Assembly (NCBI GenBank): GCA_026988395.1
Contig: JALSLI010000133.1
Span: 1 to 47,134 of the forward strand
Reading direction: 5' to 3'
From: Flavobacteriaceae bacterium
GTDB lineage: Bacteria; Bacteroidota; Bacteroidia; Flavobacteriales; Flavobacteriaceae
DNA: 47,134 nt
Part shown: positions 27,338 through 41,578 of the stretch, in pieces
Numbering within the stretch: the first letter of the stretch is position 1
Layout of the letters: every line of letters begins with the position of its first letter
Translations under genes and position numbers: made by a program
The notes under the pieces: model-generated
The model's database searches: none
Told to the model about the DNA's origin: nothing
The model's input: only the letters and a program-made list of their open reading frames with translations

Positions 27338-27353
27338 TTTTAATTTATTTTTT

Positions 27354-27402
27354 TAAAGGGATTATGAATTAAGGCTTGTCCTTCGATAATCTAATTCCTT
27401 TA
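27354..27402 (-). promoter_or_regulatory. Structured leader between rpsK and rpsD (candidate S4 control element)
   Basis: Read on the minus strand, nested complementary arms occur just before rpsD: AAAG/CTTT outermost, then GAATT/AATTC, then AAGG/CCTT closing a five-base loop, with a nine-base bulge on the 5' side. The last arm ends about 17 bases before the rpsD ATG. Upstream in the same gap are a further AAAAGC/GCTTTT pair and a TAATTTTG box (27435-27442). S4 regulates its own synthesis in other bacteria, so a binding site here is plausible; the fold is drawn by eye. Confidence 0.45.
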
Positions 27403-27471
27403 AGGATATTTATAATATAATTAATAAAAGCAAACAAAATTAAGTTGTATGCTTTTAAATTTAAAATTGAA

Positions 27472-37705: not shown

Positions 37706-38335
37706 TTATTTTGTAAAATTAGACTCAATTTGACTCAAACAAGATTCAGAAATTACCAATTTACCTGCATTCATTACAGTGTAAGTATTTAACTCTGAAC
37801 TAGTTAAAGTTTTTGTTCGTTTTAAATTTCGTGAGGACAAATATACGTTTTTATTTGATTCTGCCAAGACAAAAACGGATTTTTTATCTTCTAACCCTAA
37901 ACCTTTCAATACATTAATGAAATTTTTTGTTTTTGGAGCTTCAAATTGAAAATCTTCAATAACTACGATTTCATCATTTTTAGCTTTAACAGAAAGTGCA
38001 GAAATTCTAGCTAATTTCTTTAAACCTTTATTTAGTTTAAAAGAATAGTTTCTTGGTCTAGGACCAAACATTCTTCCTCCACCTCTAAATACACCTGATT
38101 TAATACTACCTGCACGTGCTGTACCGGTACCTTTTTGTTTTTTAATCTTACGTGTACTACCAGCTATTTCAGCTCTTTCTTTCGCTTTATGCGTACCTTG
38201 TCTTTTGTTCGCTAGATGTTGTTTTACATCTAGATATATAGCGTGTTCGTTTGGTTCAATTCCAAAAACAGCATCTGAAAGTTCAACTTCTCTTCCAGTA
38301 TTTTTCCCGTTGATATCTACTACAGCTACTTTCAT
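37706..38335 (-). CDS. rplD: Ribosomal protein L4
   Basis: A 209-residue L4. The tunnel loop is recognisable as [20 protein letters not shown] with [18 protein letters not shown], and the C-terminal half has the [14 protein letters not shown]-like stretch. In E. coli L4 represses the S10 operon by binding its mRNA leader. Its ATG overlaps the rplC stop (TAATG), so it is translationally coupled to rplC. Confidence 0.97.
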
Positions 38336-38952
38336 TATTTTTGAATTATTACGTATGAATTTTTGTGTCCCGGAACAGCACCTTTTACTACTAAAAGATT
38401 TTTATCCGTAACTACTTTCAATACTCTTAAGTTTTGTACTTTAACCGTATCGCCACCCATTCTACCTGCCATTCGCATACCTTTAAATACTCTTGCAGGA
38501 TATGAAGCAGCACCAATAGAACCAGGAGCTCTTAAACGGTTATGCTGACCGTGAGTTGCTTGACCAACACCACCAAATCCGTGTCTTTTAACAACACCTT
38601 GAAAACCTTTTCCTTTTGAAGTTCCGGTAACATCTACAAATTCACCTTCTTCAAATAAATCTACGGTGATTACATCACCTAATTTGTACTCCTTATCAAA
38701 ACCATTAAATTCCGCGACACGTTTTTTAGCGACAGTTCCAGCTTTTTTAAAGTGACCTTTTAAAGCTTTTGTCGTCTGCTTTTCTTTTTTGTCATCGAAA
38801 CCTAATTGAAGTGCGTTGTATCCGTCTACTTCTTCGGTTCTGACTTGGGTAACTACACAAGGACCAACTTCGATTACAGTACAAGGGATATTTTTTCCTT
38901 GTTCATCGAAAATACTGGTCATTCCTACTTTTTTACCTATTAACCCAGACAT
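38335..38952 (-). CDS. rplC: Ribosomal protein L3
   Basis: A 205-residue L3. [39 protein letters not shown] and [20 protein letters not shown] (with the glutamine that PrmB methylates in other bacteria) are present. It starts 50S assembly near the 3' end of 23S rRNA. A 175-base structured gap separates it from rpsJ. Confidence 0.98.
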
Positions 38953-38968
38953 TTTTAATTTAGATTAA

Positions 38969-39095
38969 GAATTTTAGTTTCCTAAAATTCGATTATTAAT
39001 AATATATTTAACTACTCTTGTTTATATAAAAACAGGGTCAAAATACTTCAACCCTGAAAATATTTTTACCGTTTTTCCTCTGCCAATCCCAGAGG
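38969..39095 (-). promoter_or_regulatory. Structured leader between rpsJ and rplC (attenuator-like)
   Basis: In minus-strand order three hairpins occur. The first is CCTCTG/CAGAGG with a seven-base loop (39077-39095). The second is CAGGGT/ACCCTG (39033-39056), followed at once by TTTTT (39028-39032), the layout of an intrinsic terminator. The third is a perfect nine-pair stem GAATTTTAG/CTAAAATTC (38969-38990) capped by the GNRA tetraloop GAAA, 16 bases before the rplC start. The position, upstream of the genes for L3, L4, L23 and L2, matches where E. coli has its L4-controlled S10 leader. Structure is seen in the sequence; the regulatory role is inference. Confidence 0.55.
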
Positions 39096-39127
39096 ACATG
39101 TTACTCCTTTTTAAAGAGCTTTTATCC

Positions 39128-39433
39128 TTAAACTTTGATTTCTACTTCAACGCCACTAGGTAATTCTAATTTCATTAAAGCATCAATTGTTTTAGAAGAA
39201 GAACTATAAATATCAATTAGTCTTTTATAAGCACTTAACTGAAATTGTTCTCTTGACTTTTTATTTACGTGAGGAGAACGTAAAACAGTGAAAATCTTTT
39301 TTCTTGTAGGTAATGGAATTGGACCATTTACCACTGCTCCTGTACTCTTTACGGTTTTTACGATCTTCTCAGCAGATTTATCTACTAAATTGTAATCGTA
39401 AGATTTTAATTTTATTCTAACTTTGTGACTCAT
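39128..39433 (-). CDS. rpsJ: Ribosomal protein S10
   Basis: A 101-residue S10. [20 protein letters not shown], the [19 protein letters not shown] stretch and [20 protein letters not shown] are typical. It is part of the 30S head and, as NusE, of antitermination complexes. It follows fusA after 18 bases, leaving no room for tuf, and precedes the structured leader of rplC. Confidence 0.98.
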
Positions 39434-39451
39434 AATTTATAATTTAGTAAA

Positions 39452-41578
39452 CTATCCGTTTGCTTTTGCTATTACTTCTTCTGCTATGTTTGATGGTGTT
39501 TCTTCGTAATGATCAAACTCCATTGTTGATGTTGCTCTACCTGAAGACAAGGTTCTTAAAGTAGTAACGTAACCAAACATATTTGCTAATGGTACCATTG
39601 CTTTAATAATCTTAGCACCATTTCTATCACTCATATCATTTACCTGCCCTCTACGTCTGTTTAAATCACCAACGATATCTCCCATATATTCTTCCGGAGT
39701 TACTACCTCTAATTTCATAATTGGCTCTAAGATTACAGCACCTGCAGCTTTTGCGGCAGATTTAAATCCTAATTTAGCAGCCAACTCAAATGATAATTGA
39801 TCGGAATCTACAGGGTGAAAAGACCCATCTTTTAAGACTACTTTTAGCGTATCAACAGTAAAACCGGCTAATGGTCCATTTTTCATGGCCTCTACAAAAC
39901 CTTTTTCTATAGAAGGGATAAATTCTTTAGGGATATTACCACCTTTAATTTTGTTTTCAAATTGTAAACCTTCTCCTTCAAAATCATCATCAACAGGACC
40001 TAAAGTAAATACAATATCTCCAAATTTACCACGACCACCTGATTGTTTTTTATAAACTTCTCTGTGATCTACAGTTTGGGTAACTGCCTCTTTATATTCA
40101 ACTTGAGGTTCACCTACATTTACTTCAACCTTAAACTCACGTTTCATACGGTCAATAATAATATCTAAGTGCAATTCCCCCATCCCTGAAATGATAGTTT
40201 GACCTGAAGCCTCATCTGTTTTCACTTGGAAAGTAGGATCTTCTTCTGCTAATTTACCAATAGCGATACCCATTTTCTCAACATCTGCCTTTGTTTTAGG
40301 TTCTACGGCAATACCAATTACCGGAGCCGGAAATTCCATACTTTCTAAAACAATTGGATGTGTTAAATCGGATAAAGTATCTCCTGTACGGATATCTTTA
40401 AATCCAACAGCTGCTCCAATATCACCTGCTTCAATATAATCAATTGCATTTTGCTTATTTGCATGCATTTGATAAATACGAGAAATACGTTCTTTCTTGT
40501 CGGTTCTATTATTTAAAATATAAGAACCGGCATCTAATCTACCTGAATACGTTCTAAAGAAAGCCAAACGACCAACAAAAGGGTCTGTTGCAATTTTAAA
40601 AGCTAAAGCTGCAAATGGATCTTTAACATCCGGTTTTCTAATTTCTTTTTCTCCTGTTTTTGGATTAATACCTTCGATATTATCTTTGTCTAAAGGTGAA
40701 GGTAAATACCTACAAACAGCATCCAACAAAAATTGAACACCTTTATTTTTAAAGGCAGAACCACATACCATTGGTATGATTGCCATATCCATAACAGCTG
40801 CTCTTAAAGCTGCATGTACTTCATCTTCAGTGATAGAATCTTCATCTTCAAAGAATTTTTCCAATAAAGCCTCATCATATTCAGCTACAGCTTCGATTAA
40901 TTCAGCTCTATATTTTTTTACTTCATCAACCATATCTTCAGGTATGTCAACTACTTCATAAGTAGCTCCCATATCTTCTTCATTCCAGATGATTGCTTCA
41001 TTTTTTACTAAATCAACAATCCCTTTAAAGTCTGCTTCATCACCAATAGGTAAAACGATAGGCACTGCATTAGAGCGTAACATTTCACGAACTTGTGTAT
41101 TTACATTTAAGAAATCAGCACCTTGTCTATCCATTTTATTTACAAAACCGATACGTGGTACTTTATAATTATCAGCAAGTCTCCAGTTTGTTTCAGATTG
41201 CGGTTCAACACCATCTACTGCACTAAACAAGAATACTAATCCATCTAACACACGTAAAGATCTATTTACCTCAACGGTAAAATCAACGTGGCCCGGAGTA
41301 TCGATAATATTAAAGTGATAAGGTTTGGTTTCACCTTTTATAGGTTGTCCTTGTTGCGTTGGAAAGTTCCAAGTACAAGTAGTTGCTGCAGAAGTAATTG
41401 TAATCCCTCTCTCTTGCTCTTGTTCCATCCAATCCATTGTAGCAGCACCATCGTGCACTTCTCCAATTTTGTGAGAAACTCCTGTATAATAAAGGATACG
41501 TTCTGTTGTAGTCGTTTTTCCTGCATCAATATGTGCAGCAATTCCGATATTTCTAGTATATTTTAAATCTCTTGCCAT
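39452..41578 (-). CDS. fusA: Elongation factor G
   Basis: A complete 708-residue EF-G. GTPase motifs are G1 AHIDAGKT (15-22), switch region [12 protein letters not shown]3 DTPGH (93-97) and G4 NKMD (147-150). Domains II-V follow, with [19 protein letters not shown] and the C-terminal [20 protein letters not shown]. It drives tRNA-mRNA translocation. It is 18 bases downstream of rpsG in the normal str order rpsL-rpsG-fusA. Confidence 0.99.

Follow-up and report, generated by a model that had tools for sequence, protein, structure and literature searches.

A candidate ribosomal-protein leader RNA upstream of rplC in Flavobacteriaceae

Results

Features of the rpsJ-rplC gap

The window analysed here is the whole of a 47,134-nucleotide (nt) stretch of DNA from a Flavobacteriaceae bacterium (assembly GCA_026988395.1, contig JALSLI010000133.1), and its minus strand carries a ribosomal-protein gene cluster in which fusA, rpsJ (S10), a 175-nt gap (38953-39127), rplC (L3) and rplD (L4) follow one another; our subject is an RNA element in that gap. 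For rpsJ, rplC and rplD we have NCBIfam identities, while the names of the remaining cluster genes are a reading from their order and length. A first-pass annotation of the sequence had pointed to an undescribed-looking RNA leader in this 175-base gap, within a cluster whose gaps are mostly shorter than 20 bases, and its account of the spacing was accurate: as read from lists of open reading frames, there are 31 gaps between neighbouring genes of the cluster, of which this one is the longest; 22 of these gaps are below 20 nt, and the second largest (134 nt, 27338-27471) precedes a gene read as rpsD. Bases 38930-39127 gave a folding energy of -43.4 kcal/mol compared with a shuffle mean of -30.3, a value that 199 of 200 dinucleotide shuffles failed to reach (z = -3.5). 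The fold of the plus strand was set aside because the cluster genes lie on the minus strand.

Read 5′ to 3′, the parts of the element are the hairpin P0, the unpaired segment ACAUG, the hairpin P1, the unpaired segment AAAACGG, the helices A and B, which share bases, and a U tract (Table 1). The three hairpins first described in the gap are all present, on the minus strand, and two of them (P1 and B) belong to the conserved element; the third, with its GAAA loop, lies outside it. The span originally proposed for the leader (38969-39095) was too short at its 5′ end, where it missed ACAUG and a fourth hairpin, P0. The five U residues reported after the middle hairpin are there, and helix B with this U tract is the only terminator-like site in 38800-39500, where shuffled sequences gave a mean of 0.3.

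Table 1. Parts of the element in the window, with its flanking genes and other features of the cluster (bp, base pairs)
Feature	Position	Strand	Remarks
P0, 5′ hairpin	39103-39119	-	7 bp (two G-U), AAA loop; sequence hypervariable between species; in minimum-free-energy and centroid folds
ACAUG, conserved unpaired segment 5′ of P1	39097-39101	-	columns 1-5 of alignment A1 (116 sequences)
P1 hairpin	39076-39096	-	UCC...GGA base almost invariant; apical part variable
AAAACGG, near-invariant unpaired segment 3′ of P1	39069-39075	-	alignment A1
Helix A, proposed antiterminator	39040-39066	-	39066-39057 with 39049-39040, 10 bp; encloses CAGGGUU (B 5′ arm)
Helix B, proposed terminator stem	39033-39056	-	39056-39047 with 39042-39033; loop 39046-39043
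U tract of terminator-like site	39028-39032	-	five U directly after helix B
Match to covariance model R1 (P1 and B)	39023-39101	-	78.1 bits, E = 2.5e-14; sole match at E ≤ 0.01 in its genome
GAAA-loop hairpin	38969-38990	-	perfect 9-bp stem; present, unconserved, outside the conserved element
rpsJ (S10)	39128-39433	-	gene upstream of the element; NCBIfam NF001861 and TIGR01049
rplC (L3)	38335-38952	-	first gene downstream; NCBIfam TIGR03625, 280 bits
rplD (L4)	37706-38335	-	second gene downstream; NCBIfam TIGR03953, 233 bits
S4-Flavobacteria leader, RF03141	27360-27391	-	50 bits; inside the 134-nt gap of the same gene cluster

The element recurs between rpsJ and rplC across the Flavobacteriaceae

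We followed the motif, whose presence was called by pattern, through 140 Flavobacteriaceae genomes drawn one per genus (133 with an rpsJ match were used and seven without one left out), a 60-genome draw from the order, and 80 named contigs. A gap was obtained from 265 of 288 loci and none from the other 23, and duplicates (L001-L030) were excluded from all gap counts. The motif was present in 115 of the 133 family genomes, that is, in 114 of 132 parsed rpsJ-rplC gaps, to which this count was restricted, and additionally in genome G151, where it lies elsewhere. Family gaps that held the motif had a median length of 163 nt, and those lacking it measured 2-93 nt, plus one of 402 nt. The 80 named loci comprised 51 with the motif, among them Polaribacter, Tenacibaculum, Lutibacter, Aquimarina, Winogradskyella, Gramella, Leeuwenhoekiella, Maribacter and Dokdonia, 17 parsed gaps without it, and 12 that were not parsed, all of which were Chryseobacterium, Kaistella, Bergeyella, Weeksella, Algoriella or "Weeksellaceae bacterium". 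Outside the family, the order draw contributed 41 non-family loci (10 of 51 having been left out), and their 34 parsed gaps held no motif. On 35 loci, mostly motif-less gaps, no covariance-model score exceeded 18.5 bits (E = 0.04), and the locus that reached this value has its rplC elsewhere than after rpsJ.

Genome-wide searches were made with the covariance model R1, which consists of P1 and B. Sequences of alignment A1, described below, match R1 by construction, and since the window locus (L031) is among the 116 from which the model was built, this holds in part for the match in Table 1 as well. Of 395 genomes of the class, 17 had a match at E ≤ 0.01, nine in the family and eight elsewhere. 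The nine family matches, one per genome and all at E ≤ 1.2e-10, lay without exception between rpsJ and rplC, and matches at this position include those of G466, G547 and G566, which were new to the sampling. The eight non-family matches were weak (E = 4.9e-5 to 9.2e-3) and were rejected as instances of the element: judged by pattern, not one of them adjoins the end of rpsJ or the start of rplC, and the best of them by eye sits between pnp-like and sigma-factor-like genes, as an ordinary terminator would. Five family genomes appeared among the misses listed, all of genus g147, which is probably Flavobacterium. Of 296 genomes of the order, 25 had a match at E ≤ 0.001, 24 of them in the family (one match each) and one, weak, outside it (E = 2.1e-4); here the family members among the misses listed belonged to g147, with one of g363.

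Conserved segments and compensatory changes

The 166 motif loci represent 160 distinct gaps, which were reduced at 93% similarity to 116 nonredundant sequences and aligned with MAFFT (alignment A1). Within ACAUG the U and G are invariant, the second A is kept in 115 of 116 sequences and the C in 104. Counting into P1, UGUC is invariant at columns 4-7 and the A before it is again present in 115 of 116, making ACAUGUC near-invariant, and on the 3′ side of P1 most of GAAAAACGG is invariant or almost so across the 116 sequences. Together, ACAUG and AAAACGG may constitute a protein-binding site.

Pairing is conserved along with these segments: for the whole structure 92% of cells were paired, compared with 33-60% when the structure was slid along the alignment. 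In helix B, a strand of the CAGGGUU type pairs with one of the GACCCUG type, followed by the U tract, and both sides had changed at all seven pairs counted. The best hairpin near ACAUG, corresponding to P0, scored a mean of 15.6 over 159 distinct upstream stretches compared with 10.2 for mononucleotide shuffles; in the window itself the simple hairpin scorer favoured an overlapping hairpin instead of P0. Helix A joins an A-rich strand just after the sensor to a U-rich strand, and occurs as AAAAUAC/GUAUUUU, AAAACAAA/UUUGUUUU, AAAGAAAA/UUUUCUUU and CAAAAUUAA/UUAAUUUUG types. An alignment-free search recovered it at a score of at least 6 in 111 of 116 sequences, and A-strands scored higher with their own partners than with those of other sequences (mean 7.54 vs. 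6.50; maximum of 5000 permutations 6.95, uncorrected for relatedness).

We then compared own with swapped strands in disjoint pairs, each sequence being matched with the closest relative still unpaired, as judged from the rplC coding sequences. Own partners won 53 comparisons to 4 for P0 (1 tie), 45 to 2 for B (9 ties), 28 to 11 for A (p = 0.005; 18 ties) and 27 to 13 for P1 (p = 0.02; 18 ties), and 12 combinations of non-partner strands, run as controls, gave p values from 0.07 to 0.70. Compensatory changes, which the first-pass annotation had named as the check to make across Flavobacteriaceae, firmly support P0 and B and moderately support A and P1. Two properties expected of a ribosomal-protein leader, a structured RNA consistently upstream of ribosomal-protein genes and a covarying secondary structure, are found here, and the suspicion of an undescribed leader in the gap has gained strong comparative support across the family.

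The hairpin nearest rplC does have the perfect nine-pair stem and GAAA loop ascribed to it, and it is not conserved. Perfect stems of at least 8 bp occur in this downstream part in 3 of 158 homologous gaps, compared with 2.6% of shuffles; the pairing test on the stretch gave 25 to 19 (p = 0.23, not significant); and three relatives of the same genus differ in their downstream sequence. With a stem rate at the shuffle level and no pairing signal across homologues, it was rejected as a part of the element. Taken alone, this hairpin is what one would expect of functionless chance hairpins in AT-rich spacer DNA, an explanation that we find scarcely credible for the gap as a whole, as it is contradicted by the near-invariant columns over 116 family sequences and by the compensatory changes, notably those in P0 and B.

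A terminator-like hairpin and an alternative helix

Helix B is a stem containing G and C, at least five U were found in the 8 nt after it in 100 of 116 homologues, and mean hairpin energies were -15.1 kcal/mol for B and -5.5 kcal/mol for A. Helix A is 7-9 bp long in 91 of 114 sequences, two of the 116 having been dropped from this linker count as their anchor pair was not standard. The linker that would have to run along A to join its end to the beginning of B measures at most 2 nt in 103 of the 114 and is zero or overlapping in 50. In the geometry of an H-type pseudoknot a linker that short should leave no room for both helices in full, and A and B therefore look like alternatives; from these loop lengths we set aside a pseudoknot in which both coexist, with partial coexistence still conceivable. 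When transcripts truncated ahead of the B 3′ arm were folded, A was predicted at a probability above 0.5 in 108 of 116, and in full transcripts B was favoured in 98 of 116 and A in 10, both calculations being made without a shuffled control. The linker lengths, with which the folding agrees, suggest an antiterminator/terminator switch formed by mutually exclusive A and B, in which A would form early and transiently as an antiterminator and keep the 5′ arm of B within its loop. The attenuator-like character that had been claimed for the middle hairpin thus has support at the sequence level, from the U tract and the alternative helix, and we judge it quite probable that the element acts by termination.

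A different role for the element was raised by the 5′ arm of P0 in the window (39112-39119, minus strand), which spells GCUCUUUA just after the S10 gene, a word that we take to resemble the rrn boxA bound by NusB/NusE. S10 is NusE, and a hairpin with near-invariant unpaired segments, placed where a very long operon begins, could also be expected of a processive antitermination or polymerase-modifying element (put-like or Nus-factor-like) that helps polymerase to traverse a long ribosomal-protein operon. We regard this as very unlikely: the boxA-like word was found in only one of the 160 distinct gaps and was taken as chance, and a terminator-like hairpin placed directly in the element suits attenuation better.

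The element accompanies rplC rather than rpsJ

We took a census of TAnnTTTGC, presumably the Bacteroidota-type promoter box, over the 160 distinct motif gaps, binned by the length that precedes the motif. The box was found in 0 of 118 gaps with fewer than 60 nt before the motif, in 3 of 26 with 60-109 nt and in 11 of 16 with at least 110 nt, and in these last 11 it sits 41-95 nt upstream of the motif. Shuffling the 16 long upstream stretches 500 times gave a mean of 0.45 with a box and a maximum of 3. By eye, several of the gaps with a promoter box also hold a terminator-like hairpin right after rpsJ.

In G151, a single-contig genome of the family, rpsJ (799462-799764) and rplC (790184-790798) are 8.7 kb apart. 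Its motif (86.2 bits) ends 30 nt before the rplC start. A promoter-like box, TAAATTTGC, lies about 70 nt upstream of the motif, and inspection by eye shows a P0-like hairpin as well. Because the motif lies beside rplC despite this separation, the element goes with rplC and not with rpsJ; this, together with the promoter-like boxes present in some lineages, makes the unit of control clear, and the element is almost certainly a cis-acting leader of rplC. Outside the family, three loci of the kind that yielded no gap (L073, L118 and L160) have a terminator-like hairpin at the end of rpsJ. In the four genomes of family f5 searched (G040, G053, G191 and G199) rplC lies about 6-20 kb from rpsJ and shows no significant motif match; in G053 (locus L313) a promoter box of the TAAATTTGC type precedes rplC, again without the motif.

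The 118 of 160 gaps in which the motif follows rpsJ within 60 nt, free of a promoter-like box, are also those in which read-through from rpsJ is expected. They would agree with a fixed partial terminator, in which B passes a constant fraction of polymerases and so sets the ratio of fusA/rpsJ to the rplC operon, ligand-free, and the upstream domain serves RNA stability only; it is in keeping with this idea that B with its U tract is the most obvious feature of the element, and that no ligand is known. We nevertheless think it unlikely, as a ratio setter would be pointless behind a promoter-like box, the situation in G151 and in 11 of the 16 long gaps, and it would leave the near-invariant ACAUG/AAAACGG, the conserved P0 and P1 and the covariation of helix A unexplained.

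Comparison with known RNA families and leaders

In a search of the window with Rfam 15, only transfer RNA and the distant S4 leader reached the gathering threshold; a ylbH hit in the gap (19.5 bits, threshold 50) was rejected. At 16 homologous loci the only hits at E ≤ 1 were RefA9 and PyrR, at 1772-1906 of L300, and neither was accepted as an identity for the element, both scoring below the gathering threshold.

At the level of titles and abstract openings, the literature searched does not describe an rplC leader for Bacteroidota. Flavobacterial S4, S15 and S16 leaders are among the 20 new ones in Table 1 of Eckert and Weinberg (2020), as is an L4 candidate upstream of rplC in archaea, and the table has none at rpsJ-rplC of Flavobacteria (PMC7247131). 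A transcriptome paper on F. psychrophilum names conserved new 5′ elements, and rplC is absent from its main text (PMC9723704).

The nearest functional parallel is the E. coli S10 operon, for which a review describes L4 control both through termination in the leader and through translation (PMC10931766). Like that leader, the element described here precedes an operon holding rplC and rplD and contains an attenuator hairpin, and we propose the same kind of feedback by a protein of the operon; unlike it, the Flavobacteriaceae element lies downstream rather than upstream of rpsJ and belongs to a different lineage, and the two are likened here without sequence comparison. The L4 leader candidate of Archaeoglobi (rplC, rplD, rplW, rplB) is likewise upstream of rplC-rplD with a ligand assigned by analogy, but it is archaeal and rated borderline in its authors' description, and it is by description, not structure, that we set it apart (PMC7247131). 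The S4-Flavobacteria leader (RF03141) shares both lineage and gene cluster with the element; it is, however, a hairpin of 33 positions that precedes the presumed rpsD, and the rpsJ-rplC gap gives no match to it. The B. subtilis rplJL attenuator, which responds to L10(L12)4, resembles the proposed system, as it is described, in ribosomal-protein feedback by transcription attenuation, and differs in operon, ligand and phylum, again in a likening made without sequence comparison.

Proposed mechanism

On balance, we favour as probable the reading that the element represents a new ribosomal-protein leader family of Flavobacteriaceae that acts in cis on the rplC-rplD-... operon through transcription attenuation. 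From the sequences we infer, for the exclusion of A and B (loop lengths, pseudoknot geometry), for termination, for the ligand and for the sign of control, the following scheme. Polymerase arriving from the upstream genes or from a promoter in the gap would make P0-ACAUG-P1-AAAACGG, the conserved sensor. Helix A would form next and, by keeping the 5′ arm of B within its loop, delay the terminator, so that transcription would run into rplC. An operon-encoded ribosomal protein present in excess, L4 being our first guess and L3 our second, would bind the sensor and either disfavour A or stabilise a paused complex; B and the U tract would then form, and transcription would stop before rplC.

Several observations weigh against this reading. 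Besides the missing shuffled control for the folding of truncated transcripts, helix A was 86% paired in the MAFFT alignment with both-side changes in only 2 of 6 pairs, one of its pairs fails in 47 of 110 cells (we suspect misalignment), and RNAalifold predicted P1 and B with A absent; once relatedness is corrected for, A is opposed by 11 of 39 decided pairs and P1 by 13 of 40. A −33-like part accompanies the promoter box in only 8 of the 14 promoter-box gaps, by pattern. The motif is missing from 18 of the 132 parsed family gaps and was found in none of the listed genomes of g147, and such control is therefore dispensable; the named Flavobacterium locus L147 is also without it. Finally, 16 of the 116 homologues have fewer than five U in the 8 nt after B (for example L054, with 3 of 8), and B may be a poor terminator there because its U tract is thin.

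These same 16 homologues would be more readily accommodated by a translation or messenger RNA-stability leader, in which a protein on the conserved domain blocks rplC initiation or recruits an RNase and B is structural or protects an end. That the U tract is kept in the other 100 speaks against this, and the tests made found no conserved pairing from the element to the rplC start, so that there is no sign of a structure that would mask the start site; we hold such a leader to be improbable, slightly more so than the fixed partial terminator, and retain attenuation as the preferred reading.

Resemblance to the ribosome offered no lead to the ligand, and this too counts against the proposal. Comparing R1 with the ribosomal RNA (rRNA) of one relative gave no match in 23S and 12.3 bits (E = 0.41) in 16S, and local alignment to 23S was equalled by 40 of 200 consensus shuffles and by 84 of 200 shuffles of the window sequence. 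Mimicry of rRNA through CATGTCCG and other short 23S words, being not beyond chance, was rejected. Because there is no significant 23S or 16S likeness at the level of sequence and secondary structure, the ligand cannot be read from mimicry; ribosomal-protein leaders need not mimic the rRNA site (PMC7247131). In our judgement the ligand is likely to be a ribosomal protein. By analogy L4 is a tentative candidate, L3 would be a rather unlikely one, and another protein of the operon is still less expected.

A large share of the ribosomal proteins is encoded in the operon behind rplC (with its neighbours, about half of them in E. coli), and its control in Bacteroidota is undescribed in the literature searched. 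The leader, carried by most of the genera sampled in one large family, offers a defined, testable RNA for the control of this operon, and an independent solution to set beside the L4 leader of E. coli. In a more speculative reading, which we think rather unlikely, the large S10-spc operon of Bacteroidota would here have its first regulatory RNA, and L3 (or another large-subunit protein that is not a known self-regulator) would for the first time be the ligand of a leader; a near-invariant ACAUG/AAAACGG sensor would control a two-state hairpin switch whose antiterminator loop carries the 5′ arm of the terminator.

Other observations

Gaps that lack the motif hold features of their own. In g147 (L271, L273, L276 and L281) and at L147, the gap contains a promoter-like TAnnTTTGC box and no motif. 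By eye, unrelated simple hairpins, some followed by U runs, occur in the motif-less gaps of other lineages (L037, L043, L072, L076, L136, which is Nonlabens, and L263), and are possible replacement attenuators or terminators. A separate observation concerns genome G140, whose assembly is 64% complete: it has a second, divergent rpsJ-like copy (G140:C118:1439-1735, 59% identity) that may be contamination. In family f9 (L061, L062, L064 and L066), where the rpsJ-rplC gap measures 99-111 nt, we observed by eye another, seemingly conserved hairpin, of the GGAUAxC-UU...AA-GCGxUGUCC type with a variable stem, which is possibly a separate leader of another Flavobacteriales family.
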